Shown here: positions 2,894-21,794 of the stretch, piece after piece
How positions within the stretch are numbered: position 1 is the stretch's first letter
How the letters are laid out: each line of letters begins with the position of its first letter
Assembly: GCF_013410775.1 (NCBI RefSeq)
Contig: NZ_JACCFH010000001.1
Location: forward strand, 4,216,001-4,280,000
DNA: 64,000 nucleotides
Direction: 5' to 3'
Source of the DNA: Sphaerotilus montanus
Lineage (GTDB): Bacteria; Pseudomonadota; Gammaproteobacteria; Burkholderiales; Burkholderiaceae_C
The notes under the pieces: generated by a model
Told to the model about the DNA's origin: nothing
What the model saw: the letters and a program-made list of their open reading frames with translations, nothing else
Database searches by the model: none
Translations under genes and position numbers: made by a program

Positions 2894-3820
2894 ATGGACC
2901 TCAAGCAACTCGACTACTTCGTGCACGTCGCCGAACACCGCAGCTTCAGCAAGGCGGCGCTGGTGCTCGACATCGCCCAGTCCGCGCTGAGCCGGCAGGT
3001 GCGGGCGCTGGAGATCGAGCTGCGCGAGACGCTGCTGCTGCGCAACGGCCGCGGCGTGGTGCTGACCGAGGCGGGACAGCGGCTGTTCGCGCACAGCGTG
3101 GGCATCCTGCAGCGGGTGCAGCTGGCGCGCGACGAGATGGCTGCGACCCGCGACGAGCCGCTGGGCCGCATCACGGTCGGCCTGCCGCCCACCATCGGCC
3201 GCCAGCTCACGATGCCGCTGATCGACCACTTCCAGCGCCGCATGCCGCAGGCGCGGCTGGCGATCGTCGAAGGCCTGTCGACGCACATCACCGAGTGGAT
3301 CACCTCGGGCCGGGTCGATCTGGGCCTGCTCTACAACCCCGAGGCGCAGCCGGCGCTGGAGATCGCGCCGGTGCTGGAGGAGCCGCTGTGTCTGGTGCAG
3401 CGCCTGGAGCCGGGCGATGCGGTGGCGCGCGGGCCGGTGCCGCTGGCGCAGCTGGCGGCGGCGCGGCTGGTGCTGCCCGAGCGGGCGCACGTCATCCGGC
3501 GCCTGCTGGACACGCAGGCGATGCTGGCCGGCCTGACGCTGGACATCGCCTGGGAGGTGTCCAGCGTCGCGTCCATCATCGACCTCGTCTGTGCCCGCTA
3601 CGGGCAGGCGGTGCTCACGGCCAGTGCGGTCGCGGCATCAGGGCGGGCCGATGAACTCCTGGTGCGGCCGATCACGGCGCCGAGCCTGTCGAGCGTGCTG
3701 TGTCTGGCCGCGTCGTCGCGCCAGCGCAGCACGCCGCTGATCCGCCTCACCCGCCACTTGCTGGAAGAGCTGGCGCGGGGCTTGCCGCAGGCGGCGGCGG
3801 CGCAGTCGCTGCCGGGGTGA
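2894..3820 (+). CDS. LysR-family transcriptional regulator
   Basis: The 308-residue protein begins MDLKQLDYFVHVAEH and has a winged helix-turn-helix in residues 1-60 (FSKAALVLDIAQSALSRQVRALE). A periplasmic-binding-like effector domain follows, from about residue 90 to the end. The ATG at 2894 matches the usual LysR N-terminus; an in-frame ORF extends upstream but is not family-like. It is transcribed away from the SulP operon, the usual place for a regulator of that operon, but the ligand is unknown. Its last 74 bases overlap the tail of the opposite-strand GDYXXLXY gene. Confidence 0.93.
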   Translation: MDLKQLDYFVHVAEHRSFSKAALVLDIAQSALSRQVRALEIELRETLLLRNGRGVVLTEAGQRLFAHSVGILQRVQLARDEMAATRDEPLGRITVGLPPTIGRQLTMPLIDHFQRRMPQARLAIVEGLSTHITEWITSGRVDLGLLYNPEAQPALEIAPVLEEPLCLVQRLEPGDAVARGPVPLAQLAAARLVLPERAHVIRRLLDTQAMLAGLTLDIAWEVSSVASIIDLVCARYGQAVLTASAVAASGRADELLVRPITAPSLSSVLCLAASSRQRSTPLIRLTRHLLEELARGLPQAAAAQSLPG

Positions 3821-5333
3821 GCGGCAGGGGCCGGATCGGCTGCAGGTCGGCGTCCGCCAGCCCGACCAGCAGCGCGCGCCCATCCGGCTGCACCCGGAAT
3901 TCGCCGTAGCGCGCCGCCTGCCAGCGCTCGCCTTCACCTTCGCGGAAGAACCAGGCGTCGCTCACGACCACCCAGCGGCCTTTCCTGGGCGCCAGGCGGA
4001 TGTGCAGCCTGTCCGCGGACGGGGGCGCGTCGGTCGCCGTGTCGACCAGCTGCTCCAGCGTGGCCACCCCACGGGCGTCGAGGCGGGCGAGGGCCACCGG
4101 TTGCGTCAGGCGGTCGGCGTCGTCGAGCTGGTCGCGCAGCGTGTCCCCGAGCTGGTAGTTGAGCGCCATGTAGTCGCCCTGCATCAGCGAGCGCGGATCG
4201 ACCGGGGCCAGCGCGATGTAGACCGTCCGGCCGTGCGCGATCAGGTCTTCCTTCTGCCAGATGCCGACGTTGGCGACCGCCAGCACGGCCAGGGCGCTCA
4301 GCGCGATGCCCCGCCGCGCCCGGTCGGGCCCCGGCGCGGCGGCGGGTTCTGCGACGCCGGCCGTTGCGGTGCGACGGGTGTGCAGGCCCCACCAGGCCAG
4401 CAGCCCGAGCAGCGTGCCAGTGCCGGCGAGCACCGCGGCCTTGGTGGCCAGCGGCCAGTCGAGCGTGTAGTAGAACGCGCCGATGATCCACACCGCCGCC
4501 AGCGCTGCGGCGGCTGCGCGTCGGGGCTGGTGTGCGCTGAGGCAGCACGCGGCCAGCCACCACGCCGCGCCCAGCCACGGCATGAAACCGGCGAGCACCA
4601 GTGCCCCGGCCATCACGCCGATCCACCACGGGCGCCGAAGCGCTGGCAGGCGGTGCCAGAGCAGCGCCACGCCGGCTGCCGCCAGCGCCACCGACCCCCG
4701 CGCGGGCCAGGAGGTCCCTGCGAACTGCTCGACCAGAAAGGTCGTCCCCGAACTGAAGGCCAGCGCCGCGAGCGTCGCCAGCAGCCAGCCGGTGCCGATG
4801 GCGTCGAGGGTCGCGGCCGACGGGGTGAGCGGCCTGTCCGCAGAGCGCTGGCGCGTGCCTCCGGCCGCCAGCAAGGTCCAGAGCAGCACGGCGGCGTGGG
4901 TCGGCAGCCACAGACTCCACGTGCCGCGTGTGCCCAGCCCGACCATCAGCAGTCCGACGGCACACGCGCCCAGCAGCGCCTGCAGCCACGCGCCGCGGAC
5001 CATCAGCGCGGCCCCCAGCGCCACCACGGCCAGCACCAGCGAGGCCCCGAGCATGGACAGGTCCCGGTACAGCCCGAAGCCCAGCGCCACACCGCCCAGC
5101 AGCAGCAGGGGCACGGCCATCTGTTCGACGAAGGTCCCGACGCCCTGCGCGCGCAACACCACGCCCGCACCCACCAGCAACAGCGGCGCCACGACATACG
5201 GCCCGATGCCCGACACCAGCAGGTCGCCCAGCAGCAGCGCGACGACGCCCGCCAGCGGGATGGTGGCCAGCCAGGCGCCCAGCGCGGTCAGCAGGACGAC
5301 GGGCCAGGGGCGTTCCGACGTCGTGGTGGTCAT
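3747..5333 (-). CDS. Membrane protein, DUF4401 plus GDYXXLXY domain
   Basis: This is a 528-residue polytopic protein. Residues 1-340 are a run of hydrophobic segments resembling DUF4401. After one more membrane segment comes a soluble domain with the signature GDYMALNY at about 385-392, the hallmark of the GDYXXLXY family. In many bacteria these two modules are separate genes beside DUF2157; here they appear fused. The ATG at 5331-5333 overlaps the stop of the upstream DUF2157 gene by four bases. The C-terminus is a proline/alanine-rich tail whose coding sequence overlaps the convergent lysR gene by 74 bases. The biochemical function of the family is unknown. Confidence 0.85.
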   Translation of the reverse strand: MTTTTSERPWPVVLLTALGAWLATIPLAGVVALLLGDLLVSGIGPYVVAPLLLVGAGVVLRAQGVGTFVEQMAVPLLLLGGVALGFGLYRDLSMLGASLVLAVVALGAALMVRGAWLQALLGACAVGLLMVGLGTRGTWSLWLPTHAAVLLWTLLAAGGTRQRSADRPLTPSAATLDAIGTGWLLATLAALAFSSGTTFLVEQFAGTSWPARGSVALAAAGVALLWHRLPALRRPWWIGVMAGALVLAGFMPWLGAAWWLAACCLSAHQPRRAAAAALAAVWIIGAFYYTLDWPLATKAAVLAGTGTLLGLLAWWGLHTRRTATAGVAEPAAAPGPDRARRGIALSALAVLAVANVGIWQKEDLIAHGRTVYIALAPVDPRSLMQGDYMALNYQLGDTLRDQLDDADRLTQPVALARLDARGVATLEQLVDTATDAPPSADRLHIRLAPRKGRWVVVSDAWFFREGEGERWQAARYGEFRVQPDGRALLVGLADADLQPIRPLPLTPAATAPPPPAASPAPALPASGG

Positions 5334-6238
5334 GCCGAGGCTCCTGCAGGCGCCGAACGCCGGGCAAGCCGGAGGATGAGCGAGACGCTGTACGCCAGCA
5401 GCCCGGCGGCGCACACCCCGATCAGCAGCAGGCGCCCGATCGGATCACCACCGCCCCGTTCCCAATCGAACAGCAGCCGCGCCAGTCCGGCCACCAGCAG
5501 CGTGTCCAGCCCGAGGGCCACGGCACTGAGCGCGAACACGTCGAAGCGGCCGGGCTGACACAGCAGTGCCGCCGCGCCCGCCAGCAGGCCCAGGCCCAGC
5601 AGGTAATGCGGCGAGACCGTGCGGTCGAACAGTCCCCAGAGCGCTGCTGCGCTGACCATGACCACCGTCAGCGTCACGCTGCCGCGGAAGGCCCACGGAC
5701 CCGTGCCGAGCCTGGCGTGGAAGGGCGGGCTGGTCAGCACACACACGCCGGCCGCCAGGGTCCAGCCGGTCAGGTAGACGGGCAGGTCCCGCGGTTCGGT
5801 GCGCCAGCGGTGGCCCGTGTGCGCCTGCACCCACAGCGCCACCCCGGTCAATGCGACGAGCCCCCAGGGCGCCCACACCACGTCGCTGCGCACCCCGAGC
5901 GCCAGCGGCACCGCCAGCACCGCCCACAGCGCAAACAGCTGCCACGCGTCCGCGCCCGTCTGGTAGGTCTGCCCGAAATACGCGAACAGCCCGCCGATGC
6001 CCAGCAGGGCGAGCAGACCGGCCGCTGGCCGCGCGGCCCGCAGCCGCCAGGCCAGCGCACAGGCGCCGAGGACCGCCGCCTGCAGCAGGGTGAACTGGCC
6101 TGTGCGCCCGAGCGCGTCCCAGTTCGCGGCGATCCACAGCACCAGCCCGAAGCCGGTCAGTCCCGCCGATGCCGCGGCCAGTCCGCGCAGCGCGGGGGCA
6201 TCCAGGGCGACCGGCGCGTCGGGGTGGGTCTGGGGCAT
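5330..6238 (-). CDS. DUF2157 membrane protein
   Basis: A 302-residue protein with about eight hydrophobic segments. It carries DUF2157-type patterns: WIAANWDALGRTGQFTLLQA near residues 35-55 and AYFGQTYQTGADAWQLF near 95-112. The ATG at 6236-6238 is preferred; a GTG 14 codons upstream is possible. It is translationally coupled to the DUF4401-GDYXXLXY gene through an ATGA overlap, the usual conserved pairing. The role is unknown; a membrane complex made by the two products is an inference from gene order. Confidence 0.85.
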   Translation of the reverse strand: MPQTHPDAPVALDAPALRGLAAASAGLTGFGLVLWIAANWDALGRTGQFTLLQAAVLGACALAWRLRAARPAAGLLALLGIGGLFAYFGQTYQTGADAWQLFALWAVLAVPLALGVRSDVVWAPWGLVALTGVALWVQAHTGHRWRTEPRDLPVYLTGWTLAAGVCVLTSPPFHARLGTGPWAFRGSVTLTVVMVSAAALWGLFDRTVSPHYLLGLGLLAGAAALLCQPGRFDVFALSAVALGLDTLLVAGLARLLFDWERGGGDPIGRLLLIGVCAAGLLAYSVSLILRLARRSAPAGASA

Positions 6239-6314
6239 GCGGGGGCCTGTTCGGGGGTTCTGGTCTGTCCAGCGTAGCACTGCGCCATGGCACCCGCGCC
6301 CGGGTGGAAGCGAT

Positions 6315-6339
6315 ATGCTGGATCGACATAGCAGCTAGT
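6315..6339 (+). promoter_or_regulatory. 25-bp shared regulatory element, copy 1
   Basis: ATGCTG at 6315-6320, seven bases, then ATAGCAGCTAGT at 6328-6339. The same element with identical spacing lies at 15039-15063 in front of ligK; 20 of 25 positions match. The core TAGC-A-GCTA is an interrupted palindrome, so an operator is plausible. TATGCT at 6314-6319 could also act as a -10 hexamer. It precedes the substrate-binding-protein gene and ligJ, and so marks one of the two parts of the protocatechuate cluster. Confidence 0.6.
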
Positions 6340-6412
6340 GCTTGCGGCCACTGTCCGGCATGGATCAGGGTCGCCAGAATCCGGCCCATCCCCTTCAGCG
6401 CCGGCCTGTCCG

Positions 6413-7156
6413 ATGTCCTCCACCGTGACCCCCTCGACCCTCCCGATGAACTCGACAGCACCGATGCCGGCGATCCGCGGCATCTCCTCGATGGCCACGC
6501 GCCAGGTGCTGGCCGATCTGGTGGTCGCGTTCGCGCAGCAGGGCGGTCCGGCGGTGGCGATCGAGTCGGTCGGTGGCGTGGATGCCGCCAGACGCGTGCG
6601 GGCCGGCGAAGCCTTCGATGTGGTGATCCTGGCGGCCGACGCCATCGACCAGCTGATCGCCGCCGGCTGCGTGCTGGCGGACAGCCGGGTCGATCTGGTG
6701 CACTCCGGCGTGGCGGTGGCCGTGCGTGCCGGCGCGCCGCGGCCGGACATCGGCTCGGAAGCCGCCGTGCGCGCTGCGGTGCAGGCCGCCCGCACCATCG
6801 GCTATTCGACCGGGCCGAGCGGGGTCGCACTGGCGAAGCTGTTCGTGCGCTGGGGCCTCGCCGACGCCCTCGCCGACAAGCTGGTCACGCCGCCGCCTGG
6901 CGTGCCGGTCGGCTCGCTGGTGGAGAGCGGCTACGTCGAACTCGGTTTCCAGCAGTACAGCGAGCTGATCAACCTCGGTGGCATCGACGTGCTCGGCCCG
7001 CTGCCGCCCGCCATCCAGATCACCACCACCTTTTCCGCCGGCATCTGCGCCACCGCCACGCCGGGGCAGGCGGCGGCCGTGCGCGAGATGCTCGCCTTCA
7101 TGGCCTCGCCGGCCGCAGCCGATGCCAAGCGCCGCCAGGGCATGGATCCGGCCTGA
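6413..7156 (+). CDS. ModA-like substrate-binding-fold protein without signal peptide
   Basis: The 247-residue product matches the molybdate-type periplasmic-binding fold: early VLADLVVAFAQQGG, then ESVGGVDAARRVRAGEAFDVVILAADAIDQL, and a C-terminal MLAFMASPAAADAKRRQGM typical of ModA-like proteins. No candidate start gives a hydrophobic signal sequence, so it is probably cytoplasmic. The start is uncertain: ATGs at 6413, 6446, 6464 and 6491 all lack a clear ribosome site. It lies 30 bases before ligJ and downstream of the shared 25-bp element, which ties it to protocatechuate catabolism. It could be a ligand sensor or a recruited enzyme; no function is proved. Confidence 0.75.
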   Translation: MSSTVTPSTLPMNSTAPMPAIRGISSMATRQVLADLVVAFAQQGGPAVAIESVGGVDAARRVRAGEAFDVVILAADAIDQLIAAGCVLADSRVDLVHSGVAVAVRAGAPRPDIGSEAAVRAAVQAARTIGYSTGPSGVALAKLFVRWGLADALADKLVTPPPGVPVGSLVESGYVELGFQQYSELINLGGIDVLGPLPPAIQITTTFSAGICATATPGQAAAVREMLAFMASPAAADAKRRQGMDPA

Positions 7157-7186
7157 GCCGACCCACCGTTCACCAGGAAACTCCCC

Positions 7187-8215
7187 ATGATCATCGACGT
7201 CCACGGCCACTACACCACCGCGCCGGCCGCCCTCGGCCTCTGGCGCGATCTGCAGATCGCTGCGCTGAAAGACCCGTCCAGGGCACCGAGTCCCGCGGAC
7301 CTGAAGATCAGCGACGACGCGCTGCGCGAGTCGATCGAGACCAACCAGCTCAAGCTGATGAAGCAGCGCGGTTCGGACCTGACGATCTTCAGCCCGCGCG
7401 CCAGCTTCATGGCGCACCACATCGGCGACTTCCAGACGTCGAGCACCTGGGCGGCGATCTGCAACGAACTCTGTTTCCGCGTGTCCGAGCTGTTCCCGGA
7501 CCACTTCATCCCGGCCGCGATGCTGCCGCAGTCGCCCGGCGTCGACCCGGCCACCTGCCTCCCCGAGCTGGTCAAGTGCGTCGAGCAGTTCGGCAATGTC
7601 GGCCTCAACCTGAATCCGGACCCGTCGGGTGGCCACTGGACCTCGCCGCCGCTGTCGGACCGGTCGTGGTACCCGGTCTACGAGAAGATGGTCGAGTACG
7701 ACCTCCCCGCGATGATCCACGTCTCGACCAGCTGCAACAGCTGCTTCCACACCACCGGCGCGCACTACCTGAACGCGGACACGACGGCCTTCATGCAGTG
7801 CCTGACGAGCGACCTGTTCAAGGACTTCCCGACGCTGAAGTTCCTGATCCCGCACGGCGGCGGCGCGGTGCCTTACCACTGGGGCCGCTTCCGTGGCCTC
7901 GCGCAGGAGCTGAAGAAGCCGCTGCTGAGCGAGCACCTGCTGAACAACATCTACTTCGATACCTGCGTCTACCACCAGCCCGGCATCGACCTGCTGACCA
8001 AGGTGATCCCGGTGAAGAACATCCTGTTCGCCTCCGAGATGATCGGCGCCGTGCGCGGCATCGACCCGGAAACCGGCCACTACTACGACGACACGAAACG
8101 CTACATCGCCGCCACGGCCAACCTGACCGACGACGAACGCTTCCAGATCTACGAAGGCAATGCCCGCCGCGTCTTCTCGCGCCTGGACACGGCACTCAAG
8201 GCGAAGGGCCGCTGA
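7187..8215 (+). CDS. ligJ: 4-oxalomesaconate hydratase (LigJ)
   Basis: A 342-residue amidohydrolase-superfamily hydratase that converts 4-oxalomesaconate to 4-carboxy-4-hydroxy-2-oxoadipate in the protocatechuate 4,5-cleavage pathway. The N-terminal IIDVHGHY gives metal-ligand His6 and His8. Further motifs are MIHVSTSCN, HGGGAVPYHWGRFRGL and SEMIGAVRGIDP, which supplies the Glu ligand known in Sphingobium LigJ. Length and sequence resemble SYK-6 LigJ along the whole protein. An AGGAA site precedes the ATG. It is separated from the remaining pathway genes by the signalling block at 8.3-14.9 kb. Confidence 0.95.
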   Translation: MIIDVHGHYTTAPAALGLWRDLQIAALKDPSRAPSPADLKISDDALRESIETNQLKLMKQRGSDLTIFSPRASFMAHHIGDFQTSSTWAAICNELCFRVSELFPDHFIPAAMLPQSPGVDPATCLPELVKCVEQFGNVGLNLNPDPSGGHWTSPPLSDRSWYPVYEKMVEYDLPAMIHVSTSCNSCFHTTGAHYLNADTTAFMQCLTSDLFKDFPTLKFLIPHGGGAVPYHWGRFRGLAQELKKPLLSEHLLNNIYFDTCVYHQPGIDLLTKVIPVKNILFASEMIGAVRGIDPETGHYYDDTKRYIAATANLTDDERFQIYEGNARRVFSRLDTALKAKGR

Positions 8216-8303
8216 CCAGCGCAGGCCGCGCGCAGGCAGGGCTGCGCACAAGGCTAAACTCGGCGTCCGATTTCTTCATTGCCGTCCTGACCGACCCGCC
8301 TCC

Positions 8304-10007
8304 ATGCCGCCTCGTTCCTGGTCTTGCGTGCAGGTCTTCTCGCGGTCCCTGGCCCTCCTGGCAAGCGCCAGCGCAGTGGTCGCTGCGCCGCTGTCTGCAC
8401 CGGTCCCCCTGTCTGTCCCTGCGACGGAACTCAGCGTTCCCTACACCGTGACCGTCACCGGCCGCGACACCCTGATCGCCGTGGGCCGCCGCTTGCTGGC
8501 CGATCCGCGCCAGTGGCCCCAGTTGCAGTCGTTCAACCAGATTGCTGATCCCCGCCGCATCCCGGTGGGCACGGTGCTGCGGATCCCGCTGCGGCTCATG
8601 CCCGCGGAAGCCGTGTCCGCCACGGTGGTGGCGGTGTCGGGCGATGTGCGCGGTGCGGATGGCCGGGCGGTCGCCGAAGGGCAGACGATGCCGCAAGGCG
8701 GCCGCCTGCGCACCGGTGACGGTCAGGCCACCATCCGGCTGGTGGATGGCACCGTGCTCCGGCTGCGGCCCTCGACCGCCGTGCAGGTGGACGTGTCCCG
8801 GCGCCTGCCCCGCGTGGGCGGGGTGCTGTCCGGCGTGCAGGTGCAGGAAGGCCAGGTGGAGGTGAAGGCGCAGAAGGCCACCAACGGCGGGCTGCCAGGC
8901 TTTCGGGTCAGCACGCCGCAGGGGCTGCTGGGGGTGCGGGGCACGGAATTCCGTGTGGCCGTGGACGGCCGGGCCGAGGTGACCCGCGGCGAGGTGCTCG
9001 AAGGGCAGGTGGCGGTCGACGGCCTGCGCGGCAAGCCGGGTCAGCGGGTGAACGCCGGGTTTGGCGTCGTGGTGGACCGCACGGGCGACGTGCCGCCGCC
9101 GGTCCGCTTGCTGGCAGCGCCGGATCTCTCGGCCTTGCCGGTGCTGCAGGACCGCGTGCTGGTGCGCATGCCGCTGGCGCCGCAGCCGGGCGCCGTGGCC
9201 TATCTGGGGCAGATCGCGGCCGATGACCGCTTCGAACCCGTGCTGCAGACCGTGCGCACCGAAGTCAGCACCACCGGCACCGCGCTGCGGTTCGCGGATC
9301 TGCCGGACGGCCGCTATGTCCTGCGTGTCCGCGCGGAGGATGCGCAGGGGCTGCAGGGCCTGGATGCCCGGCACACCTTCACGCTGAAGGCGCGGCCCGA
9401 GCCTCCGCTGCCCACCAACCCCGCGCCAGGCGCCATCCTGTCGGCAGCGCCGCTGGAGTTCGCCTGGACCGCCGCGCCGGAGGCCGGCAGCTACCGCCTG
9501 CAACTGTCCCGGTCCGAGGACTTCCGCGCGCCGCTGCACGACCGGCGCGGCCTGGTGCCGACCGCGCTCCGGATCACCGATCTGCCGCCGGGGGTGTACC
9601 ACTGGCGCCTGGCCAGCGAGCGCAGTGCCACCGACCAGGGCCCGTTTGGTGCGGCGCAGCGGCTGGAACTGCGGGCGCTGCCTTCACCGCTGGCGCCACC
9701 CGTCGTCGGCACCGGCGGCATCCGGCTGGGCTGGGAAGGCCTGCCCGGCCAGACCTTCGAGGTCGAGTTCGCGCGCGAGGCCGCCTTCGCCACCGTGGAA
9801 CTGGCGCGCCGGACCGAGGCGCCCGCGCTGGAAGTGACGCTGCCGGGCACCGGCCGCTACTTCGTGCGGCTGCGGGCCCGCGACCCGGATGGCTACCTCG
9901 GCCCCTACACCGCGCCTCAGCAATTCAGCATCCCCCACTGCCTGCGCGACGGCCAGGGTCGCTGTGCCATGAGCAATGCGGGTCAATCGGTCCTGATCGG
10001 GCCATGA
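8304..10007 (+). CDS. Exported FecR-domain protein with LysM
   Basis: A 567-residue protein with an N-terminal hydrophobic stretch (about 12-29) that looks like a signal peptide. A LysM-like module follows at about 50-100 (DTLIAVGRRLLADPRQW..PVGTVLRIP). Next is a FecR domain at about 110-265 with LRTGDGQATIRLVDGTVLRL and VSTPQGLLGVRGTEF. The rest holds beta-sandwich or FN3-like repeats rich in WTAAPEAGSYRLQLS-type sequence. FecR/LysM proteins of this kind usually pair with CHASE2 sensors, as here, where the stop overlaps the kinase start by four bases. It probably acts in the envelope as part of the signal input. Confidence 0.85.
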   Translation: MPPRSWSCVQVFSRSLALLASASAVVAAPLSAPVPLSVPATELSVPYTVTVTGRDTLIAVGRRLLADPRQWPQLQSFNQIADPRRIPVGTVLRIPLRLMPAEAVSATVVAVSGDVRGADGRAVAEGQTMPQGGRLRTGDGQATIRLVDGTVLRLRPSTAVQVDVSRRLPRVGGVLSGVQVQEGQVEVKAQKATNGGLPGFRVSTPQGLLGVRGTEFRVAVDGRAEVTRGEVLEGQVAVDGLRGKPGQRVNAGFGVVVDRTGDVPPPVRLLAAPDLSALPVLQDRVLVRMPLAPQPGAVAYLGQIAADDRFEPVLQTVRTEVSTTGTALRFADLPDGRYVLRVRAEDAQGLQGLDARHTFTLKARPEPPLPTNPAPGAILSAAPLEFAWTAAPEAGSYRLQLSRSEDFRAPLHDRRGLVPTALRITDLPPGVYHWRLASERSATDQGPFGAAQRLELRALPSPLAPPVVGTGGIRLGWEGLPGQTFEVEFAREAAFATVELARRTEAPALEVTLPGTGRYFVRLRARDPDGYLGPYTAPQQFSIPHCLRDGQGRCAMSNAGQSVLIGP

Positions 10008-12343
10008 CGACCGGGGCGGGCCGCGCGCGCCTGCTGGGGGGCACGGCGGGTGTGGCCCTGGTACTGGCGGCGCTGGCCTTCGTCCTGCCGCTGAGCGGCT
10101 GGACGTGGCGGGCGGACCGGCTGGTCTACGACATCGGCCTGTCCACCTGGCGCCGCCCCGTGCCCGAGGGCATCACGGTCGTCGCGATCGACGACGCCAG
10201 CGTGGCCGCCATCGGCCGCTGGCCCTGGCCGCGTGCGGTGCACGCCACCTTGCTGTCCCGGCTGGCCGAGACCCATCCCAGGGCGATCGGCCTGGACGTG
10301 ACCTTCAGCGAGCCCGACCCCGATCCCGCGCAGGACGTGTTGCTGGCCGAGCAACTCGCCAGGGCGGCTCCCGTCGTGCTCTCGGTGGACTGGGTGGCCG
10401 CCGGACCGGGGCAGCCACCCCAGCTGCTGACCCCGGTCACGGGCCTGCCACCGGGGGTGCGCCTGGGCACGGCCGAGGCGTCGGTGGACGCCGACGGGGT
10501 GATGCGCCATGCCTTCCTCTCGGCGGGTTCGCTGCAGTCGCCGGTGCCCCACATGGCGGTGGCGCTGCTGCAGGCGGCCGGCGAAGCTCCTGCGCCGGAC
10601 CTGCCCGTGACGTCAGACGACGAGACGGACATCGCCACGGGGCCGTGGCACCGTGGCAGCCGCTTCCTGGTGCGCTATGCCGGCCCGCCGGGGCAGCTGG
10701 ACCGGGTGTCCTACGTCGATGTGCTGCGCGGCGCCGTCCCGCCGGAGCGGCTGGCGGGGCGCTACGTGCTGGTGGGCATGACCGCCACCGGGCTGGGCGA
10801 CACCGTGGCCACCCCGGTGAATCGCCAGCGCCATGCCATGCCTGGCGTCGAGGTCCTGGGCCACACGCTCTACACCTTGCGCAGCGGCGACACGGTGCGG
10901 GCCGTGTCGCCGCTGGCCAGTGCCGGGCTCTCGGCGCTGCTGGTGCTGGTCCTGATGGCCGGCATCCAGCGGCTCGGGGCGCGCTGGGCGCTGGCGCTGG
11001 CGGTGGGGGCGTGGCCATTGGTGATCGGGGCCAGCCTGGTCGCCCTGGGGTTCGGCCTGTGGTGGAGCCCGGTGTCCTGGGCCCTGGCCGCGGCACTGGC
11101 CTATCCCTTGTGGAGCTGGCGGCGCCTGGAGCAGGCGGTGGATGCGCTGGACGCCGAGATCGGCCGGCTGGTGCCGGAAGGCGGCCTGGACCTGGGGGTC
11201 GCGGCCCGACCCGCGGCGCGGCGGCGCGACATGCTGGCCTTGCGGCTCGACACGCTGTACACCGCCACCGACACCCTGCGCAGTGCACGTCGTTTCCTGT
11301 CGGACGCGCTGGCCGGCATGCCCACCGCGATGGCCGTCACCGACCCGCGGGGCCGCGTGCTGCTGGCCAACGCGCTGGCGGCGCAGCTGTTCGAGCTGGA
11401 CAAGGCCGAGGACATGCAGGGCATGGAGCTGCCGGGTCTGCTGGTGGAGTTCGTGCCGGCCAAAGGCGTGGACGTGGACCTGGAGGCGATCTTCCAGCCC
11501 GGCAGCGCGCCACCGGTGGGCTGGGCGATGGAGGCGCGGGCCGAACGCCTGGGGGACTTCCTGCTGCACTTCGCGCCGGTGCTGCTGCTGGACCAGCAGC
11601 GCTGGGTGGTGACGTTCTCGGACGTGAGCGCGATCCGGCAGGCGCAGCGCCGGCGCGACCGCGCCCTGGCCTTCGTCTCGCACGACCTGCGCTCGCCGGC
11701 CAGCACCATCGTGCTGCTGGCCGACCAGTACCAGCGCGGACGCGTCCAGATGCCGCTGGAGGCCTTCCTGGTCGAAATCCAGCGCCTGGGCGCGCGCACG
11801 CTGCAACTGGCCGATGACTTCGTCCGGGTGGCGCACGTGGAGTCGCGCCCGCTGCAGGTGTCGTCCGTGGCCGTGGCGGCACTGCTGGACGAGGTGGTCG
11901 CTGATTTCCGTCCCCAGGCGGTGGCGGCCGATGTGACGCTGGTGTGGCGCCATGACCCGGTCCATCCGCCAGTCTCGGTGGCACCCTGGCCCATGGACCG
12001 GATGCTGGTGCAGCGGGCGGCGGGGAATCTCGTCTCCAACGCGATCAAGCACAGCCCGGTCGGCGGGCAGGTCACGGTCCTGGTGCGTTTCGACGCCGGG
12101 CGGGACACGCTGAGCCTGACCGTGTGCGACCAGGGGCCGGGACTGTCGCCGGCACAACGCCAGCGCCTGAACCATGGCGACGACGGTCTGCCGACCGATG
12201 ATGTCGGTGGCGTCGGCCTCGGCCTGCAGTTCGTGCAGCGCGTGGCCGAGCGCCACCGGGGCCGGCTGCAGGCGCTGGAGGGCAGCGAGGAGGGGGGCGG
12301 GCGGTTCGCGCTGGTCCTGGGGCGCCTCGGGGGGGCTCTTTGA
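10004..12343 (+). CDS. CHASE2 sensor histidine kinase
   Basis: A 779-residue membrane sensor. It has an N-terminal membrane anchor (about 8-28), an extracytoplasmic CHASE2 domain (about 40-300, with ITVVAIDDASVAAIGRWPWPR), and three membrane segments (about 305-370). A PAS-like region follows at about 435-535, then HisKA with phosphoacceptor His560 in FVSHDLRSPAS. The HATPase carries N-box NLVSNAIKHS, G1 CDQGPGL and G2 GVGLGLQFV. The kinase motifs look intact. It is translationally coupled to the FecR protein. No response regulator is encoded nearby, so the output is unknown; the neighbouring GGDEF-EAL gene is convergent and three bases away. Confidence 0.93.
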   Translation: MTTGAGRARLLGGTAGVALVLAALAFVLPLSGWTWRADRLVYDIGLSTWRRPVPEGITVVAIDDASVAAIGRWPWPRAVHATLLSRLAETHPRAIGLDVTFSEPDPDPAQDVLLAEQLARAAPVVLSVDWVAAGPGQPPQLLTPVTGLPPGVRLGTAEASVDADGVMRHAFLSAGSLQSPVPHMAVALLQAAGEAPAPDLPVTSDDETDIATGPWHRGSRFLVRYAGPPGQLDRVSYVDVLRGAVPPERLAGRYVLVGMTATGLGDTVATPVNRQRHAMPGVEVLGHTLYTLRSGDTVRAVSPLASAGLSALLVLVLMAGIQRLGARWALALAVGAWPLVIGASLVALGFGLWWSPVSWALAAALAYPLWSWRRLEQAVDALDAEIGRLVPEGGLDLGVAARPAARRRDMLALRLDTLYTATDTLRSARRFLSDALAGMPTAMAVTDPRGRVLLANALAAQLFELDKAEDMQGMELPGLLVEFVPAKGVDVDLEAIFQPGSAPPVGWAMEARAERLGDFLLHFAPVLLLDQQRWVVTFSDVSAIRQAQRRRDRALAFVSHDLRSPASTIVLLADQYQRGRVQMPLEAFLVEIQRLGARTLQLADDFVRVAHVESRPLQVSSVAVAALLDEVVADFRPQAVAADVTLVWRHDPVHPPVSVAPWPMDRMLVQRAAGNLVSNAIKHSPVGGQVTVLVRFDAGRDTLSLTVCDQGPGLSPAQRQRLNHGDDGLPTDDVGGVGLGLQFVQRVAERHRGRLQALEGSEEGGGRFALVLGRLGGAL

Positions 12344-12346
12344 ACC

Positions 12347-14893
12347 TCAGACGGTGGCCTGCTGCAGAAATGCCTCTCGCCAGCGGTCCAGCGCAGGTGC
12401 GGGCAATGGCCGCGCGTAGTGGTAGCCCTGTGCCTCGTCACAGCCCATGGCTGTCAGCCGCGCCGCGGTGCTGGCGTTCTCGATGCCTTCGGCGGTGGTG
12501 CGCAGATTCAGGTGGCGTGCCATCTGCAGGACCGCATGCACGATCGCCGGCGCGTCCGTGCCCTGTTCCAGACCCAGGATGAACGAGCGGTCGATCTTGA
12601 GCCGGTCAAAGCGGAAGCGCTGCAGATAGGCCAGGTTGGAATAGCCGGTGCCGAAGTCGTCGATGGACAGGCTGATGCCCAGGTTCTTGAGGTCCCGGAC
12701 CGTGCAGATCGCTTCATCTTCCTTGCCCATCAGCACCGATTCGGTCAGCTCCAGCTCCAGGCAGTGCGGTGGCAGGCCGCTGTCTTCCAGTGCCGCGGCC
12801 ACGTCCTTCACCAGCCTGCCGGACTGGAACTGCAGCGGAGACACGTTGACGGCCATCCTGACCGTGTGCCAGCCGGTCCGGTGCCAGTGCGCGGCCTGTC
12901 GGCAGGCTTCGTGCAGCACCCAGGTGCCGATCGGCACGATCAGGCCGCTCTCTTCGGCCACGGCGATGAAGTCGCCGGGCTGGTGCAGAGGCTGTCCAGG
13001 GCGCCGCCAGCGGATCAAGGCCTCGACGCCGACCACGTCCGTGTCCTTCAGCCCGATCTGCGGCTGGTAGTGCAGCTCGAACTCCTTGCGCTCCAGCGCG
13101 ACGTGCAGCGCATTCCGGGTGCTGACATAGGCCATCAGGCGGGTGTTCATGTCCGGATGAAACACGCGGAAATGGCCCGGACCCGCACGCTTGGACTCGA
13201 ACAGCGCGGTGTCGGCGTTGCGCATGAGGATTTCGGCATCCAGGGCATGGTCGGGAAAGACGGCGGCACCGATCGAGAGCGACATGAAGAGCTGGTGTCC
13301 TTCGATGTCGAACGGGCGGCGGAACTCGGCCATGACCGTTTCGCATTGCCGAATCACCTGTTCCGGCGAGCGGACGTCGGGCAGGACCACCATGAATTCG
13401 TCACCGGCGAGACGGCATGCGGTGTTGCCGCTGCCAAGGCAGTGCTGCAGCCGTTCGGCCACGGTGCGCAGCAAGGCGTCTCCCACGGCGTGGCCATGGG
13501 TGTCGTTGACGTGCTTGAAACGGTCGAGGTCGAGGCAGAGCAGGCCCACACCTGCGCCGCCGTGCAGGGCTTCCGGACGGACGCTGGCCTGGCGCAATGC
13601 CTCGTCGAGCAGCCGATGGCCGCGCGGGCGGTTGGGTAACTGGGTCAGCGGGTCATGCCAGGCGAGGTGTTCGGTGGTCCGGCGCTCGCTGGCTTGCGCC
13701 GCAGCGCGCATGCGGCTGTAGACGCCCAGGATGCAGAGCATGGTGAGCCCCGTGAATTGCACAGGTCGGCCATGTCGGGCCGTCCAGATCGTCAGGCCCA
13801 GGCTGCACCAGCACAGGAAGAAGGCGATCTGCAGCGCGCGGGAGCCCGGTCTGGCCGGCAGCGGTGTTCTCCAGGCCGCCAGGGGCAAGACGGCGACGAT
13901 GGCCAGACCGAGCATGCTGACGACCATCCGGGGGAGCAGCGTCTGCTCGGAGAAGAGCGTGGCACCCGCGGCCAGCAAGGCCAGCACGTTGAGGCTCCCG
14001 AGGAGCCAGGCCCAGAGACCGGTTCGGCCAATGTCCAGCAAGGCCCTGGCGGACAGGGTGAACAGGGCGTAGCACGCTGCCCCCGAGACCGTGAAGACGG
14101 GAACGAGGTGTCCGGTGATCGCAGGCCAGAAATAGGGCAGCAGTTGTCCCTGGAAGGTGGCCTCGAAGCCTTTCGCGGTTGCCAGCCAGCCGGCCAGCAA
14201 CGCGCAGGCCGGGTCCCGGGTCCACAGCAGCAGTCCGATCACCATCAGACAGACCGTGAAGGTCACGGTCTCGTGCACCAGCAGCGAGACCAGCGCCTGC
14301 GTGTAGGCCTCTGGACGCCAGGCGTGAATCTCCACGGTGGGCACCGTCACGTCCTGCAGTCGCACCAGCAGGCGCACGGAGGCGCCAGGTGGAACCGTCA
14401 CGGGAAACACCGGCTCCACGTGTCGAATGGCCGCGCCGCTGACTGGCCAGGCGCTGCCCGCCTGCTGGTGGTCCAGGGCGCCCAGGCTCTCCGGCTGGAA
14501 GGTCTGGAGCTGCACATCCCTGATGCGCCAGGGCTTGACCACGATCCAGCGTGTCAGCGGCTGCGCGCTGCTGTTGTGCACCACGCCGGTCAGCCACACC
14601 GTGCCGGGAACCCAGGAGGCGTTGCGGTTGTCCTCGGTTGCAGGCAGCCAGCCGGACTGGTCCAGCGCCTCACGGCCGCTGGACGCGTGATCCGGCGCTT
14701 GCTTGAGCACCTGCATGGCGTCCACCAGCGCGATGGAGCCCGGTTCGGCCGCCAGCTCGACGGCGGGCGTGTTCGGCACGGCGACCGCCGGCAGCGACAA
14801 CCCGATCAGGAGGCAGCACCACGCCCAGCGCCAACAAGTCCATGCCCGTTCCCATGGCTTGCTGTCGGATCGGCGGAGTGCAATCAAATTCAT
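12347..14893 (-). CDS. 7TMR-DISM GGDEF-EAL c-di-GMP protein
   Basis: An 848-residue protein with a signal peptide, a 7TMR-DISM extracellular carbohydrate-like domain (about 40-200), seven membrane segments (about 205-405), a GGDEF domain (about 420-580) and an EAL domain (about 600-845). The diguanylate cyclase signature reads AGDEF near residue 495, with Ala replacing the first Gly, so cyclase activity may be reduced. The phosphodiesterase motif EALIRW near 622 and the later DDFGTGYSN region look intact. It probably turns over cyclic di-GMP in response to an envelope signal. It is transcribed divergently from ligK and ends three bases from the CHASE2 kinase. Confidence 0.92.
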   Translation of the reverse strand: MNLIALRRSDSKPWERAWTCWRWAWCCLLIGLSLPAVAVPNTPAVELAAEPGSIALVDAMQVLKQAPDHASSGREALDQSGWLPATEDNRNASWVPGTVWLTGVVHNSSAQPLTRWIVVKPWRIRDVQLQTFQPESLGALDHQQAGSAWPVSGAAIRHVEPVFPVTVPPGASVRLLVRLQDVTVPTVEIHAWRPEAYTQALVSLLVHETVTFTVCLMVIGLLLWTRDPACALLAGWLATAKGFEATFQGQLLPYFWPAITGHLVPVFTVSGAACYALFTLSARALLDIGRTGLWAWLLGSLNVLALLAAGATLFSEQTLLPRMVVSMLGLAIVAVLPLAAWRTPLPARPGSRALQIAFFLCWCSLGLTIWTARHGRPVQFTGLTMLCILGVYSRMRAAAQASERRTTEHLAWHDPLTQLPNRPRGHRLLDEALRQASVRPEALHGGAGVGLLCLDLDRFKHVNDTHGHAVGDALLRTVAERLQHCLGSGNTACRLAGDEFMVVLPDVRSPEQVIRQCETVMAEFRRPFDIEGHQLFMSLSIGAAVFPDHALDAEILMRNADTALFESKRAGPGHFRVFHPDMNTRLMAYVSTRNALHVALERKEFELHYQPQIGLKDTDVVGVEALIRWRRPGQPLHQPGDFIAVAEESGLIVPIGTWVLHEACRQAAHWHRTGWHTVRMAVNVSPLQFQSGRLVKDVAAALEDSGLPPHCLELELTESVLMGKEDEAICTVRDLKNLGISLSIDDFGTGYSNLAYLQRFRFDRLKIDRSFILGLEQGTDAPAIVHAVLQMARHLNLRTTAEGIENASTAARLTAMGCDEAQGYHYARPLPAPALDRWREAFLQQATV

Positions 14894-15137
14894 CGGAAGG
14901 TCTTCGGGCGGGGCGTACGGGGTGGCCGGGGACTGATGTTGCGAGATCGAGCCGGTATTTTCCCGTTCTTAAGTCGAGTTGGTTCCGTACCGTATCGTTG
15001 GTACTGCACGGTTTGTCTGGTTCCGATCACGGCATGCCATGCTGATCAGAGATAGCAGCTAGTCGATTTCTTGCCTAGTCGGCATGGTTTGCCAAGTCCA
15101 GAATCTGCGGCATTGCTGATCCTGGGACTTGTCCACC
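14894..15137. promoter_or_regulatory. Divergent control region, GGDEF-EAL gene / ligK
   Basis: This is a 244-base divergent spacer with no coding sequence. It contains the second copy of the shared element at 15039-15063 and an inverted repeat GTACC (14987-14991) N8 GGTAC (15000-15004). The spacer is less GC-rich than its surroundings, as expected for promoters. No Shine-Dalgarno sequence precedes ligK. Confidence 0.55.
15039..15063 (+). promoter_or_regulatory. 25-bp shared regulatory element, copy 2
   Basis: ATGCTG at 15039-15044, seven bases, then ATAGCAGCTAGT at 15052-15063. It has the same two blocks and spacing as 6315-6339. It lies 75 bases before the ligK start codon. The flanks of the two copies are not alike, which argues for selection on a site rather than a recent long duplication. 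Confidence 0.6.
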
Positions 15138-15821
15138 ATGTACGAACTCGGCGTTGTCTACCGCAACATCCCCCGCGCCAACCGCGAGGCCACCGACCGC
15201 CTGGCCGCCCTCGGCTCGGCCACCGTCCACGAGGCGATGGGCCGCGTCGGCCTGCTCAAGCCATACATGCGCCCGATCCAGGTCGGCACGCAGGTGTCGG
15301 GCACGGCTGTCACCGTGCTGCTGCAGCCCGGCGACAACTGGATGATGCACGTCGCCGCCGAGCAGATCCTGCCGGGCGACATCGTCATCGCGGCGGTCAC
15401 GGCCGACTGCACCGACGGCTACTTCGGCGACCTGCTGGCGACCTCGTTCCAGGCGCGTGGTGCGCGGGCGCTGGTCATCGACGCCGGCGTGCGCGACGTC
15501 AAGACGCTCAAGGAAATGGGCTTCCCGGTGTGGTCCAGGGCGATCAGCTCCAAGGGCACGATCAAGGCCACGCTGGGTTCGGTGAACATCCCCGTCGTCT
15601 GTGCCGGCATGCTGGTGCACCCTGGGGACGCGATCGTGGCCGACGACGACGGCGTGTGCTGCGTGCCGGCTGCCCGCGTGGTCGAGGTCGCGGATCTGGC
15701 GGCCAAGCGCGAGAGTTTCGAAGGCGAGAAGCGCGACAAGCTGGCCTCGGGCATCCTGGGGCTGGACATGTACAAGATGCGCGAGCCGCTGGCCAAGGCG
15801 GGACTGAAGTACATCGACTGA
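15138..15821 (+). CDS. ligK: 4-carboxy-4-hydroxy-2-oxoadipate aldolase (LigK/PmdF)
   Basis: A 227-residue class II aldolase of the RraA-like HMG/CHA family. It splits 4-carboxy-4-hydroxy-2-oxoadipate into pyruvate and oxaloacetate, the last step of protocatechuate 4,5-cleavage. The family-typical [15 protein letters not shown] is followed by DAGVRD with Arg119-Asp120, which bind substrate and metal. The N-terminus [11 protein letters not shown] fits the ATG at 15138 better than the TTG three codons earlier. It is the first gene of the long plus-strand operon running to the transporter at 23.7 kb and is preceded by the shared 25-bp element. Confidence 0.95.
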
Positions 15822-15849: not shown

Positions 15850-16827
15850 ATGAACACTTCCAGCATCCTGGCCGCCTGCGTGCTGGCCTTTGGCGGCCTG
15901 ACGGCCACGCTGGCACAGGCCCAGGACTTTCCGACCAGGCCCGTCCGCATCCTGACGCCGTTCCCCGCAGGCGCCGGCCCGGAGGCCGTGGTGCGCGTGC
16001 TGGCCGAGAAGCTCCAGAAGAAGTGGGGCAAGCCGGTGATCGTCGAGAACAAGCCGGGCGCCAACGGCTTCCTCGCCATCGACGCCTTCAGGCGTGGCGC
16101 CACCGACGGCCACGACCTGATCCAGCTCGACAACGTCCACCTCGTCGCCTACCCGCACCTGTTCAAGAAGCTGCCCTACGACCCGGTCAAGGACTTCGAC
16201 CCGGTCACGCCGCTGTTCCGCACCTACTTCTTCGTGGGCGTCCCGGCCAACAGCCCGCACAAGACGGTCGGCGACATCCTGGCCGACGCGAAGGCCCACC
16301 CCGGCAAGCTGAACTATGGCTCCTGGTCGGTCGGCAACCCGGTGCACCTGGGCTCGGCGCTGCTGGAGTCGATGACCGGCACCGAGATGCAGCACATCAT
16401 CTACAAGGAAGTGTCGATGCTCTACACGGGTGTCGCCACGGGCGAGCTGCACTGGGCGCTGGGCTCGCTCGCCTCGGCCGGGCCGATGCAGCGCTCGGGC
16501 AAGATCAAGTTCATCGGCGTCACGGCGCCGAAGCGGCATGCGGCGTTCCCCGACGTGCCGACGGTCGCCGAATCGGGCGGCCCGGCGGGCTACGAGGTGA
16601 CGGGCTGGACGACCATCGCCGCACCCAAGGGGCTGCCGAAGGCCGTGGCCGAGAAGATCCAGAAGGACATCGAGGCCGCGCTGGCCGAGCCGGACATGAA
16701 GGAGCGCTACGCGGCGTTCGGTTACGAGCCGTTCCCGGCCACCCGGGACCAGTTCAACGCCTACATCGCGTCGGAGTCGACCAAGTACGCCGACGTGATC
16801 AAGCGCGCCAAGGCGTCGCTGGACTGA
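15850..16827 (+). CDS. Bug-type tripartite tricarboxylate transporter receptor
   Basis: A 325-residue periplasmic solute receptor of the TctC/Bug family. A signal peptide covers about residues 1-24 (cleavage after AQA). The mature protein starts QDFPTRPVRILTPFPAGAG, where family members carry the ligand-binding FPPGG-like loop. A GGAG ribosome site precedes the ATG, 28 bases after ligK. No TctA or TctB membrane partners are in the window, as is usual for Bug proteins in Burkholderiales. Within this operon the ligand is probably an aromatic acid or a pyrone/dicarboxylate intermediate, which is an inference from context. Confidence 0.9.
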   Translation: MNTSSILAACVLAFGGLTATLAQAQDFPTRPVRILTPFPAGAGPEAVVRVLAEKLQKKWGKPVIVENKPGANGFLAIDAFRRGATDGHDLIQLDNVHLVAYPHLFKKLPYDPVKDFDPVTPLFRTYFFVGVPANSPHKTVGDILADAKAHPGKLNYGSWSVGNPVHLGSALLESMTGTEMQHIIYKEVSMLYTGVATGELHWALGSLASAGPMQRSGKIKFIGVTAPKRHAAFPDVPTVAESGGPAGYEVTGWTTIAAPKGLPKAVAEKIQKDIEAALAEPDMKERYAAFGYEPFPATRDQFNAYIASESTKYADVIKRAKASLD

Positions 16828-16849
16828 CCCCAAGGACCGAGAGCTTTCC

Positions 16850-17791
16850 ATGAGCAAACCCACCACCGGTGATTTCACCAAGACCGCAGGCTGGATGGAC
16901 TGGTACACCGGCCCGAGCCAGCCGGCGTTCCAGCTGCCGGCCGGCGCGGTCGATGCGCACTGCCATGTCTTCGGCCCCGGCGCCGAGTTCCCCTACGCGC
17001 CGGAGCGCAAGTACACGCCCTGCGATGCCTCGAAGGCGCAGCTGTACGCGCTGCGCGACCACCTCGGCTTCGCCCGCAACGTCGTCGTGCAGGCGACCTG
17101 CCACGGCGCCGACAACCGCGCCATGGTCGATGCCTGCATGTCCTCCGGTGGCAAGGCGCGCGGCGTCGCCACGGTGCGCCGTTCGGTCACCGACGAGGCG
17201 TTGCAGGCGATGCACGCGGCCGGCGTGCGTGGCGTGCGCTTCAACTTCGTCAAGCGCCTGGTGGACTTCACGCCCAAGGACGAGCTGATGGAGATCGCCG
17301 GGCGCATCGCCAAGCTTGGCTGGCACGTCGTCATCTACTTCGAGGCGGTGGACCTGCCCGAACTGTGGGACTTCTTCACCGCGCTGCCGACGACGGTCGT
17401 CGTGGACCACATGGGCCGCCCGGACGTGTCGAAGCCGATCGACGGACCGGAGTTCACGCTGTTCCTGGAGTTCATGCGCCAGCACCCGAACGTCTGGAGC
17501 AAGGTGAGCTGCCCCGAGCGCCTGAGCGTCACGGGCCCGAAGGCGCTGAACGGCGAGCAGGCCGCTTACACGGATGTCGTGCCGTTCGCGCGCCGCGTGG
17601 TCGAGGAGTTCCCGGACCGCGTGCTCTGGGGCACCGACTGGCCGCACCCGAACCTGAAGGACCACATGCCCGACGACGGCCTGCTGGTCGATTTCATCCC
17701 GCACATCGCACCGACCGCCGAGCTGCAGCAGAAACTGCTGGTGGGCAACCCGATGCGGCTTTACTGGCCCGAAGAAGCCGGCAACGCCTGA
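16850..17791 (+). CDS. ligI: 2-pyrone-4,6-dicarboxylate hydrolase (LigI)
   Basis: A 313-residue amidohydrolase that opens 2-pyrone-4,6-dicarboxylate to 4-oxalomesaconate. VDAHCHVFGPG supplies His37 and His39. Other family motifs are VQATCHGADNRAMVD, GVRGVRFNFVKRL, VVVDHMGRPDVSK and LWGTDWPHPN, with the conserved late Asp. Length and motif order match Sphingobium LigI and Comamonas PmdD. It sits between the Bug receptor and the tannase-family gene in the operon and acts directly after LigC. Confidence 0.95.
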   Translation: MSKPTTGDFTKTAGWMDWYTGPSQPAFQLPAGAVDAHCHVFGPGAEFPYAPERKYTPCDASKAQLYALRDHLGFARNVVVQATCHGADNRAMVDACMSSGGKARGVATVRRSVTDEALQAMHAAGVRGVRFNFVKRLVDFTPKDELMEIAGRIAKLGWHVVIYFEAVDLPELWDFFTALPTTVVVDHMGRPDVSKPIDGPEFTLFLEFMRQHPNVWSKVSCPERLSVTGPKALNGEQAAYTDVVPFARRVVEEFPDRVLWGTDWPHPNLKDHMPDDGLLVDFIPHIAPTAELQQKLLVGNPMRLYWPEEAGNA

Positions 17792-19539: not shown

Positions 19540-20821
<1,282 letters not shown>

Positions 20822-20822
20822 C

Positions 20823-21794
20823 ATGAGCAAACCCCATCAAGGCCCGATCCGGGTCGCCCTGGCCGGCGCCGGCGCCTTCGGCATCAAGCACCTCGACGGC
20901 ATCAAGAACATCGACGGCGTCGAAGTCGTCTCGCTGATCAGCCGTGACCTGGAGAAGACGAAGGAAGTCGCCGCCCAGTACGGCATCGGCCATGTCACGA
21001 CCGACCTGGCCGACGCGCTGGCGCTGCCCGAGGTGGACGCCGTCATCCTCTGCACGCCGACGCAGATGCACGCCTCGCAGACGCTGTCGTGCCTGCAGGC
21101 GGGCAAGCATGTGCAGGTGGAGATTCCGCTGTGCGACGTGCTGGCCGAGGGCGAGGAAGTGGTTCGCGTGGCGAAGGAGTCGGGTCTCGTCGCGATGTGC
21201 GGCCATACCCGCCGCTTCAACCCGAGCCACCAGTACGTCCACAACAAGATCACCGCTGGGGAATTCAACATCCAGCAGATGGATGTGCAGACGTATTTCT
21301 TCCGCCGCAGCAACATGAACGCGCTCGGCCAGCCGCGTTCGTGGACCGACCACCTGCTGTGGCACCACGCCGCGCACACGGTCGACCTGTTCGCCTACCA
21401 GTGCGGCTCGCCGATCGTGAAGGCCAACGCCATCCAGGGCCCGACCCACCCGACGCTGGGCATCGCGATGGACATGAGCATCCAGCTCAAGGCCGCCAAC
21501 GGCGCGATCTGCACGCTGAGCTTGTCCTTCAACAACAACGGCCCGCTCGGCACCTTCTTCCGCTACATCGGCGACAGCGCGACCTACATCGCCCGCTACG
21601 ACGACCTGTTCAGCGGCAAGGAAGAGAAGATCGACGTGTCGAACGTGGCGGTGTCGATGAACGGCATCGAGCTGCAGGACCGCGAGTTCTTCGCCGCGAT
21701 CCGCGAAGGGCGGCAGCCGAACGCGAGCGTGGAGGGCGTGCTGGCCTGCTACCAGGTGCTGCACGATCTGGAGCAGCAGCTCCACGCCGGCTGA
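20823..21794 (+). CDS. ligC: 4-carboxy-2-hydroxymuconate-6-semialdehyde dehydrogenase (LigC)
   Basis: A 323-residue Gfo/Idh/MocA-type NADP-dependent oxidoreductase. It oxidises the hemiacetal of the ring-cleavage product to 2-pyrone-4,6-dicarboxylate. The Rossmann motif is VALAGAGAFGIKH near residue 14. The VQVEIPLCD region and HTRRFNPSHQYVH are family-typical. It starts one base after the ligB stop and completes the order ligI-ligA-ligB-ligC seen in pmd clusters. Confidence 0.95.
   Translation: MSKPHQGPIRVALAGAGAFGIKHLDGIKNIDGVEVVSLISRDLEKTKEVAAQYGIGHVTTDLADALALPEVDAVILCTPTQMHASQTLSCLQAGKHVQVEIPLCDVLAEGEEVVRVAKESGLVAMCGHTRRFNPSHQYVHNKITAGEFNIQQMDVQTYFFRRSNMNALGQPRSWTDHLLWHHAAHTVDLFAYQCGSPIVKANAIQGPTHPTLGIAMDMSIQLKAANGAICTLSLSFNNNGPLGTFFRYIGDSATYIARYDDLFSGKEEKIDVSNVAVSMNGIELQDREFFAAIREGRQPNASVEGVLACYQVLHDLEQQLHAG

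Follow-up and report, generated by a model that had tools for sequence, protein, structure and literature searches.

How can the parts of a catabolic gene cluster stay under common control once the cluster has been broken up? The question is raised by a 64,000-nucleotide stretch of the Sphaerotilus montanus genome (contig NZ_JACCFH010000001.1, positions 4,216,001 to 4,280,000; called the window below, with positions counted from its first nucleotide). The window holds genes of the protocatechuate 4,5-cleavage route, by which many Burkholderiales feed aromatics from lignin and plastic into central metabolism, in two separate parts, one with a modA-like gene and ligJ and one running from ligK to an aldo/keto reductase gene, and a 25-bp element is found before each part. 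The element is very probably the site of the LysR-type regulator encoded at 2894-3820, which, to judge from sequence comparison, would be an activator switching on both transcripts together after the split of the operon.

The element, ATGCTG-N7-ATAGCAGCTAGT, is found at 6315-6339 and 15039-15063, both times on the + strand, and the two copies are identical at 20 of 25 positions. They are the only copies in the window at up to three mismatches (0.03 expected; none of 100 shuffles had two) and the only copies in the 5.07 Mb genome at up to two. With three mismatches allowed, the genome gives 3 element matches and 3 for the reversed control pattern, and the degenerate consensus gives 10 against 14 for the control. 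Scored with a matrix, the two sites reach 29.2 and 26.9, the next best position in the window 14.6 and the best of 60 simulated windows 18.6. The element is non-chance and lies far above expectation. The window and genome counts confirm the two copies, with the same internal spacing, reported in a preliminary description of this DNA, and the core TAGC-A-GCTA is palindromic around one base as stated there.

The likeness of the two promoters extends beyond the element. Downstream of it, CGGCATGG (positions 42-49) and CCAGAATC (60-67) are found in both promoters at identical offsets. In the 50 bases after the element 24 are identical between the promoters, which 0.55% of random window pairs reach, and a pair of identical stretches in one register, each 7 bases or longer, is seen in 1 of 100,000 random pairs. 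The 80 bases upstream of the two elements have no obvious kinship. The preliminary description had held that the flanks differ; this is true of the upstream side and not of the downstream side. Since the 25-mer, CGGCATGG and CCAGAATC stand in one register, the common unit of the two promoters is a promoter module and not the 25-mer alone. CGGCATGG holds an inverted ATGCCG half-site and is common to both promoters and to relatives in the genus. The features concerned are the following.

2894-3820, + strand: LysR-type regulator, predicted binder of both elements (Pfam HTH_1 and LysR_substrate; homologues beside the element).
6315-6339, + strand: element 1, predicted LysR-regulator site of the modA-like/ligJ transcript (sequence match).
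6352-6357, + strand: TGTCCG, weak, in the -35 register of promoter 1 (logo positions 38-43).
6356-6363, + strand: CGGCATGG in promoter 1, in the predicted -35/-10 spacer.
6375-6380, + strand: CAGAAT, predicted -10 of promoter 1, with a predicted start at about 6387 (family logo register).
15039-15063, + strand: element 2, predicted LysR-regulator site of the ligK to ligC transcript (sequence match).
15076-15081, + strand: TAGTCG, weak, in the -35 register of promoter 2 (logo positions 38-43).
15080-15087, + strand: CGGCATGG in promoter 2, with the offset of promoter 1.
15099-15104, + strand: CAGAAT, predicted -10 of promoter 2, with a predicted start at about 15111 (family logo register).

A loose search of 149 relatives for the element at up to two mismatches gave a match in 28 genomes; a pathway gene follows the site in 18 of the 29 loci returned from relatives and none does in 11. 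Matches at this level are partly noise, as the reversed control also matches in many genomes, and the case therefore rests on exact and one-mismatch sites and on loci anchored on the LysR gene. Twenty regions, most of them around matches of the loose search, were compared for layout. A single site before a run with adjacent ligJ and ligK is found in L034, L041-L044 and L046, three sites are found in L040 (genome G046), and L045 has an element match and no lig genes. Within the genus of the window the lig run is usually cut between ligJ and ligK, and the six genomes with both parts visible (G000, G001, G004, G006 on two contigs, G011 and G012) have a site before each part, with 0-2 mismatches to the consensus. 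Genome G002 has adjacent ligJ and ligK and one site, and in G007 a separate site accompanies the counterpart of the aldo/keto reductase gene, whose contig has no lig genes.

An exact scan for ATGCYG-N7-ATAGCWGCTAGT in one genome per species (84,980 species) gave 94 matching stretches, of which 80 were annotated, with 82 sites. Lig or modA-like genes lie within 4 kb downstream of 71 of these sites, and a homologue of LysR 2894-3820 (30-79% identical) lies within 1.5 kb of 63. Neither was found at eight sites. Four of these (L106, L119 and L155 from Piscinibacter, L151 from Pelomonas) precede an operon of Liv-type periplasmic-binding-protein and permease genes, in L106 after a vanillate O-demethylase-like (VanA-like) gene, and L142 precedes TRAP genes; the proteins of L106, L151 and L142 were run against Pfam, while L119, L155 and the permease genes were classed by eye. 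In Piscinibacter and Pelomonas the regulon has probably gained aromatic-acid uptake through the Liv-type ABC operon. The remaining three sites (L097, L112 and L148) are in sequences titled Bacteroidetes, Gracilibacillus and Alphaproteobacteria, outside Burkholderiales, and are probably due to chance. In L129 and L157, neither labelled as the genus of the window, two exact sites stand about 0.8-0.9 kb apart, before the modA-like gene and before ligK; here the second site has perhaps been gained independently.

The preliminary description had proposed an operator or promoter element of the two pathway transcripts, and had counted lack of conservation or many unrelated copies against such a role. 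Many Burkholderiales keep the element ahead of their ligJ, ligK and modA-like genes, and this genome has only two copies; both results support the role as predicted from sequence. The same data bear on the possibility that the two copies stem from a mobile repeat, or from a duplication not long ago, and have no function. In favour of this, the CGGCATGG and CAGAAT parts are common to both promoters within the genus. However, the element is not repeated elsewhere in the genome, the element and the -10 are conserved while most of the DNA between them is not, and the spacer bases vary while the dyads are kept beside LysR homologues that are about 40-90% identical. The persistence of the element across genera is itself an argument against a neutral relic, and this origin is extremely improbable.

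The regulator, left open in the preliminary description, is now most likely the LysR-type protein at 2894-3820, on the evidence of gene linkage; LysR was among the classes listed there. In most of the loci that hold one, a homologue (identity from 92% down to about 40%) lies next to the site, either divergent from the operon (as in L042, L044 and L046) or directly upstream in the same direction (as in L048, L088, L113 and L147), and the orientation of the site to the lig genes is constant. In G004 (L047; LysR 92% identical) the gene is set apart from the element, as in the window, by membrane-protein genes on the other strand, and in G005 (L048; 79%) it adjoins the element. At E <= 1e-50 the LysR was found in 140 of 250 family genomes. 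Seventy of these matches, 30 retrieved with the list and 40 picked by hand from its remainder and thus not a random sample, formed the LysR-anchored set, in which a site above the 99% simulation threshold is found in 56 of the 70 loci (about 0.7 expected), most often beside the LysR or the first pathway gene; the training set of the matrix was 53 distinct sites of the exact scan that partly reappear in the loci, so that the test is not fully independent. Across the 250 genomes the LysR is present in 40 of the 41 with a listed site at up to one mismatch (G000, G001 and G011 being added from separate searches) against 100 of the 209 others (Fisher 1e-10, kinship ignored). The recognition helix is nearly invariant, with residues Q29, L32, S33, R34, R37, L39 and E40 the same in all 77 LysR homologues compared. 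A conserved neighbouring reading frame at 2914-3303 on the - strand was rejected as a gene; it is a shadow frame antisense to the LysR.

Thirteen further named plasmid loci (L253-L265) were scored with a matrix from the LysR-anchored sites, with 100 simulations each, and their gene content was inspected. A close LysR homologue, 41-45% identical over most of its length, is held by seven of them, and in five of the seven (L260, L262, L263, L264 and L265) the site scores above all 100 simulations. The homologues of L262, L263 and L264 (42-43% identical) lie away from a full cluster. The site of L264 lies 1 kb ahead of the LysR, next to ligI (70% identical to the LigI of the window); the one lig-like gene found in L262 and in L263 encodes a LigI-like amidohydrolase (50% and 33% identical to it). 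Related hydrolase pathways may be further targets of the LysR family. The Sphaerotilus sulfidivorans locus L258 has the site, the modA-like gene and ligJ, with no LysR in the stretch. Five lig loci are without such a LysR (L253 Pseudarthrobacter, L255 Cupriavidus metallidurans, the gallate cluster L256 of Caballeronia, L257 Sphingobium and L259 Variovorax); none of the five has a site above simulation, and the site is therefore missing where the regulator is missing.

These loci also bear on the possibility that the element is the site of another lig regulator, namely the second LysR (23948-24916), the IclR (37964-38728) or a TetR. Aromatic pathways are often under IclR regulators, the second LysR and the IclR are both encoded in the window, and the site and LysR 2894-3820 have the pathway context in common, so that linkage alone cannot fully separate them. 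Against this, homologues of LysR 2894-3820 adjoin the element in most loci, the five lig loci without one have no site, and the T-N11-A frame of the element suits a LysR-type protein. Another regulator is thus quite improbable. The second LysR was rejected, as none of the loci compared has it other than the window's own DNA (L052).

The anatomy of the site was derived from a logo of 59 non-redundant LysR-anchored sites, chosen with a matrix that favours the core letters. The core is AT-N11-ATA-N-C-W-G-N-TAG; T2 (100%), A14 (85%) and T15/A16 (100%) are letters selected for by the matrix. Outside the matrix T38 (88%) marks the -35 and A64/A65 (90% and 88%) the -10, and the logo rises to peaks at 37-41 (cTTGG, -35-like) and at 61-66 (cAnAAT, -10-like), which leaves a 17-bp spacer. 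Two dyads are present, a T-N11-A dyad centred at position 8 with 59% symmetry, whose T2 and A14 are found in both window copies, and 11 bp from it a TAGCWGCTA dyad centred at 19 with 85% symmetry. They lie at about -65 and -54 of the predicted start, in a fixed register to the sigma-70-like -35 and -10 boxes. The genus of the window has an extra CGGCAT, an inverted half-site, at 42-47. Two marks of a LysR operator, an interrupted T-N11-A dyad and a linked LysR-type gene, are both found, the latter at the 63 of 82 exact sites and 56 of 70 LysR loci given above. A LysR operator is also expected at about -80 to -45 of a regulated promoter; on this point the site offers its fixed register to the -35- and -10-like boxes, counted from predicted starts.

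The fixed spacing to the -35- and -10-like boxes would also be found in a conserved core promoter whose only partner is the polymerase, with an UP-like element among its contacts and no dedicated regulator. The information, however, is highest between predicted -72 and -49, ahead of the -35, there are only two copies in 5 Mb and the copies track one LysR gene, which makes a bare core promoter very improbable. It is a tentative and somewhat doubtful suggestion that the element represents a LysR subfamily, widespread in Burkholderiales and with a site unlike those of LigR and GalR, that has an unusual composite operator, in which the T-N11-A dyad is fused to the stronger 9-bp TAGCWGCTA dyad one helical turn downstream in a binding mode undescribed for the family, and with a 65-bp promoter module re-created ahead of each fragment when the operon breaks. 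If this is true, such breaks have repeated the rewiring of a regulon as natural replicates.

What can be read from the sequence is the site and its conservation, the link to the LysR gene and the fixed promoter register, and from these a mechanism may be proposed. The LysR would bind the 25-bp element at about 48-72 bp ahead of the predicted starts of two promoters, sigma-70-like and weak in their -35 boxes, at two overlapping dyads one helical turn apart, ATGCYG-N3-CRGCAT (the T-N11-A frame) and TAGCWGCTA. On sensing a pathway compound, presumably protocatechuate, gallate or 4-oxalomesaconate, it would recruit RNA polymerase, and the predicted modA-like/ligJ and ligK-tctC-ligI-esterase-ligABC-AKR transcripts (AKR, aldo/keto reductase) would be switched on jointly from the predicted starts. 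In the genus, the CGGCAT half-site after the -35 may be an activation site. The ancestral layout was likely a LysR, one element and one operon; in Sphaerotilus and Leptothrix the operon would then have been split, with an own copy of the element for each part. The split cluster would be a clean case of co-regulation surviving the break-up of an operon.

Position, dyads and weak -35 boxes point, by analogy, to a class I LysR-type activator, as for LigR. Some LysR-type proteins repress, and the site and the regulator could be correctly paired with the LysR mainly a repressor or independent of a ligand. A site centred at about -65 with weak -35 boxes resembles class I activation, and LigR and GalR of parallel pathways are described as activators (PMC12710314, PMC12314914), which leaves repression or ligand independence improbable.

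Several observations weigh against the proposed mechanism, in which activation is presumed from the position of the site. In the window 2.5 kb separate the LysR from element 1, and no site is found ahead of the LysR gene itself; autoregulation through the site may therefore have been lost there. No LysR was detected within 1.5 kb of 19 of the 82 exact sites, and 14 of the 70 LysR loci are below the threshold. These 14 are the displaced LysR of the window (L175), six other loci that lack nearby lig genes, and seven lig-bearing loci, of which four (L179, L197, L236 and L238) have a degenerate site in place just below the threshold. Among the thirteen named loci, the site of L254 (Acidovorax), between the LysR and a modA-like gene, is marginal (1 of 100 simulations as good), no site of L261, with a Sodalis homologue of the LysR, rises above simulation (8 of 100 score as well), and no LysR with a site and without any pathway-like gene was found. 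The notion that the site follows the LysR even without a pathway gene was dropped, as L262-L264 carry LigI-like genes by the site.

The proposed activation by the LysR at 2894-3820 has its closest parallel in LigR, the LysR-type activator of Sphingobium SYK-6 and Novosphingobium aromaticivorans (PMC12710314, PMC6888825), whose inducer is given as protocatechuate or gallate (PMC6888825). In that system, as here, the pathway is described as having two transcripts, each preceded by one site that overlaps a T-N11-A motif and lies at about -48 to -85; LigR itself is placed at -51 to -85 (PMC12710314). The LigR boxes, as described, share TT-N-GC-N6-TTAT, whereas this was looked for and is absent from both elements at up to one mismatch; elsewhere in the window it has 3 one-mismatch matches against 5.4 expected. 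By analogy, the regulator of the element would work like LigR without a LigR box. FldY, the regulator of a sphingomonad lig cluster (Sphingobium TomTYG74, locus L257) that stood in for LigR in the protein comparison, is 28% identical to the window LysR over 139 amino acids.

GalR of Pseudomonas, a LysR-type activator for gallate, serves the same lower pathway and is described as using 4-oxalomesaconate (PMC12314914). Its predicted recognition site, ATAAANAAANNGNAT, is also AT-N11-AT, but its arms differ from the element, and the passages on the site mention no TAGCWGCTA dyad (PMC12314914). In the window ATAAANAAANNGNAT has three two-mismatch matches, none of them at the elements. In Pseudarthrobacter phenanthrenivorans Sphe3 the LysR gene pcaR is divergent from a ligJ-ligK-ligI-ligAB-ligC cluster; the paper on PcaR calls studies of the regulation of the 4,5-cleavage route scarce (PMC8431788). 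PcaR is 28% identical to the window LysR over 158 amino acids, and its locus has no element (7 of 100 simulations score as high). The best NCBIfam model for the window LysR is NAC (NF008410), at 169 bits, far below the cut-off of 309 bits, and the protein was ruled out as NAC. The NAC site is ATA-N9-TAT, with the T-N11-A frame of the element.

The pmd operon of Comamonas serves the same pathway, and transcripts and transcriptional regulators are reported to rise more than 18-fold on aromatics; the abstract calls the regulatory mechanisms unknown, and the term LysR has 0 occurrences in the main text (PMC10154247). The text of a 2019 regulon survey of 32 Betaproteobacteria holds no occurrence of pmd, ligJ or ligK (PMC6449761), and a Delftia genome paper annotates a LysR gene beside pobA as ligR (PMC13141888). 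In the literature searched no account of the site, or of a LysR regulon for the pathway in Betaproteobacteria, was found, and an earlier account in older papers is possible. With a named regulator and a precise site in many genera the regulon would become predictable from sequence, and the two together would supply an inducible promoter part.

The other genes of the window are arranged around the two elements as follows.

3747-6280, - strand: DUF4401/GDYXXLXY and DUF2157 membrane-protein genes, between the LysR and element 1.
6446-7156, + strand: ModA-like protein of the solute-binding fold, first gene of transcript 1.
7187-8215, + strand: ligJ, 4-oxalomesaconate hydratase (amidohydrolase; named by homology and context).
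8304-14893: three genes splitting the cluster, FecR-like (+), CHASE2/histidine-kinase-like (+) and GGDEF/EAL-like (-), labelled by eye.
15138-15821, + strand: ligK, CHA aldolase (NCBIfam TIGR02798).
15850-17791, + strand: TctC-type receptor gene and ligI (ligI by homology and context).
17826-19526, + strand: gene of the tannase/feruloyl esterase family.
19540-21794, + strand: ligA, ligB and ligC (ligC by family and context).
21825-22814, + strand: aldo/keto reductase gene.
23948-24916: second LysR gene.
37964-38728: IclR gene.

The region 23948-32683 holds another pair of extradiol dioxygenase genes (ligA2/ligB2-like), which has a divergent LysR of its own, together with TRAP transporter, AroE-like, HPPD-like and TIM-barrel genes, and is perhaps a branch from quinate and shikimate to protocatechuate. 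The search of the window found no element at this branch.

The ModA-like protein (6446-7156) has no obvious signal peptide when judged by eye. Its gene occupies the operon slot that is held in Paraburkholderia caribensis (L260) by 4-oxalomesaconate tautomerase. Among 90 lig-bearing loci, from sets that overlap, 63 have the ModA-like gene only, 9 a PrpF-type tautomerase gene only, none both and 18 neither in the stretch examined. The ModA-like protein is a candidate non-orthologous 4-oxalomesaconate isomerase; a PrpF-like gene elsewhere in the genome, 48% identical to the PrpF-type gene of P. caribensis, speaks against this idea. The ModA-like gene is also found in an actinobacterial cluster and in a gallate cluster of Caballeronia.

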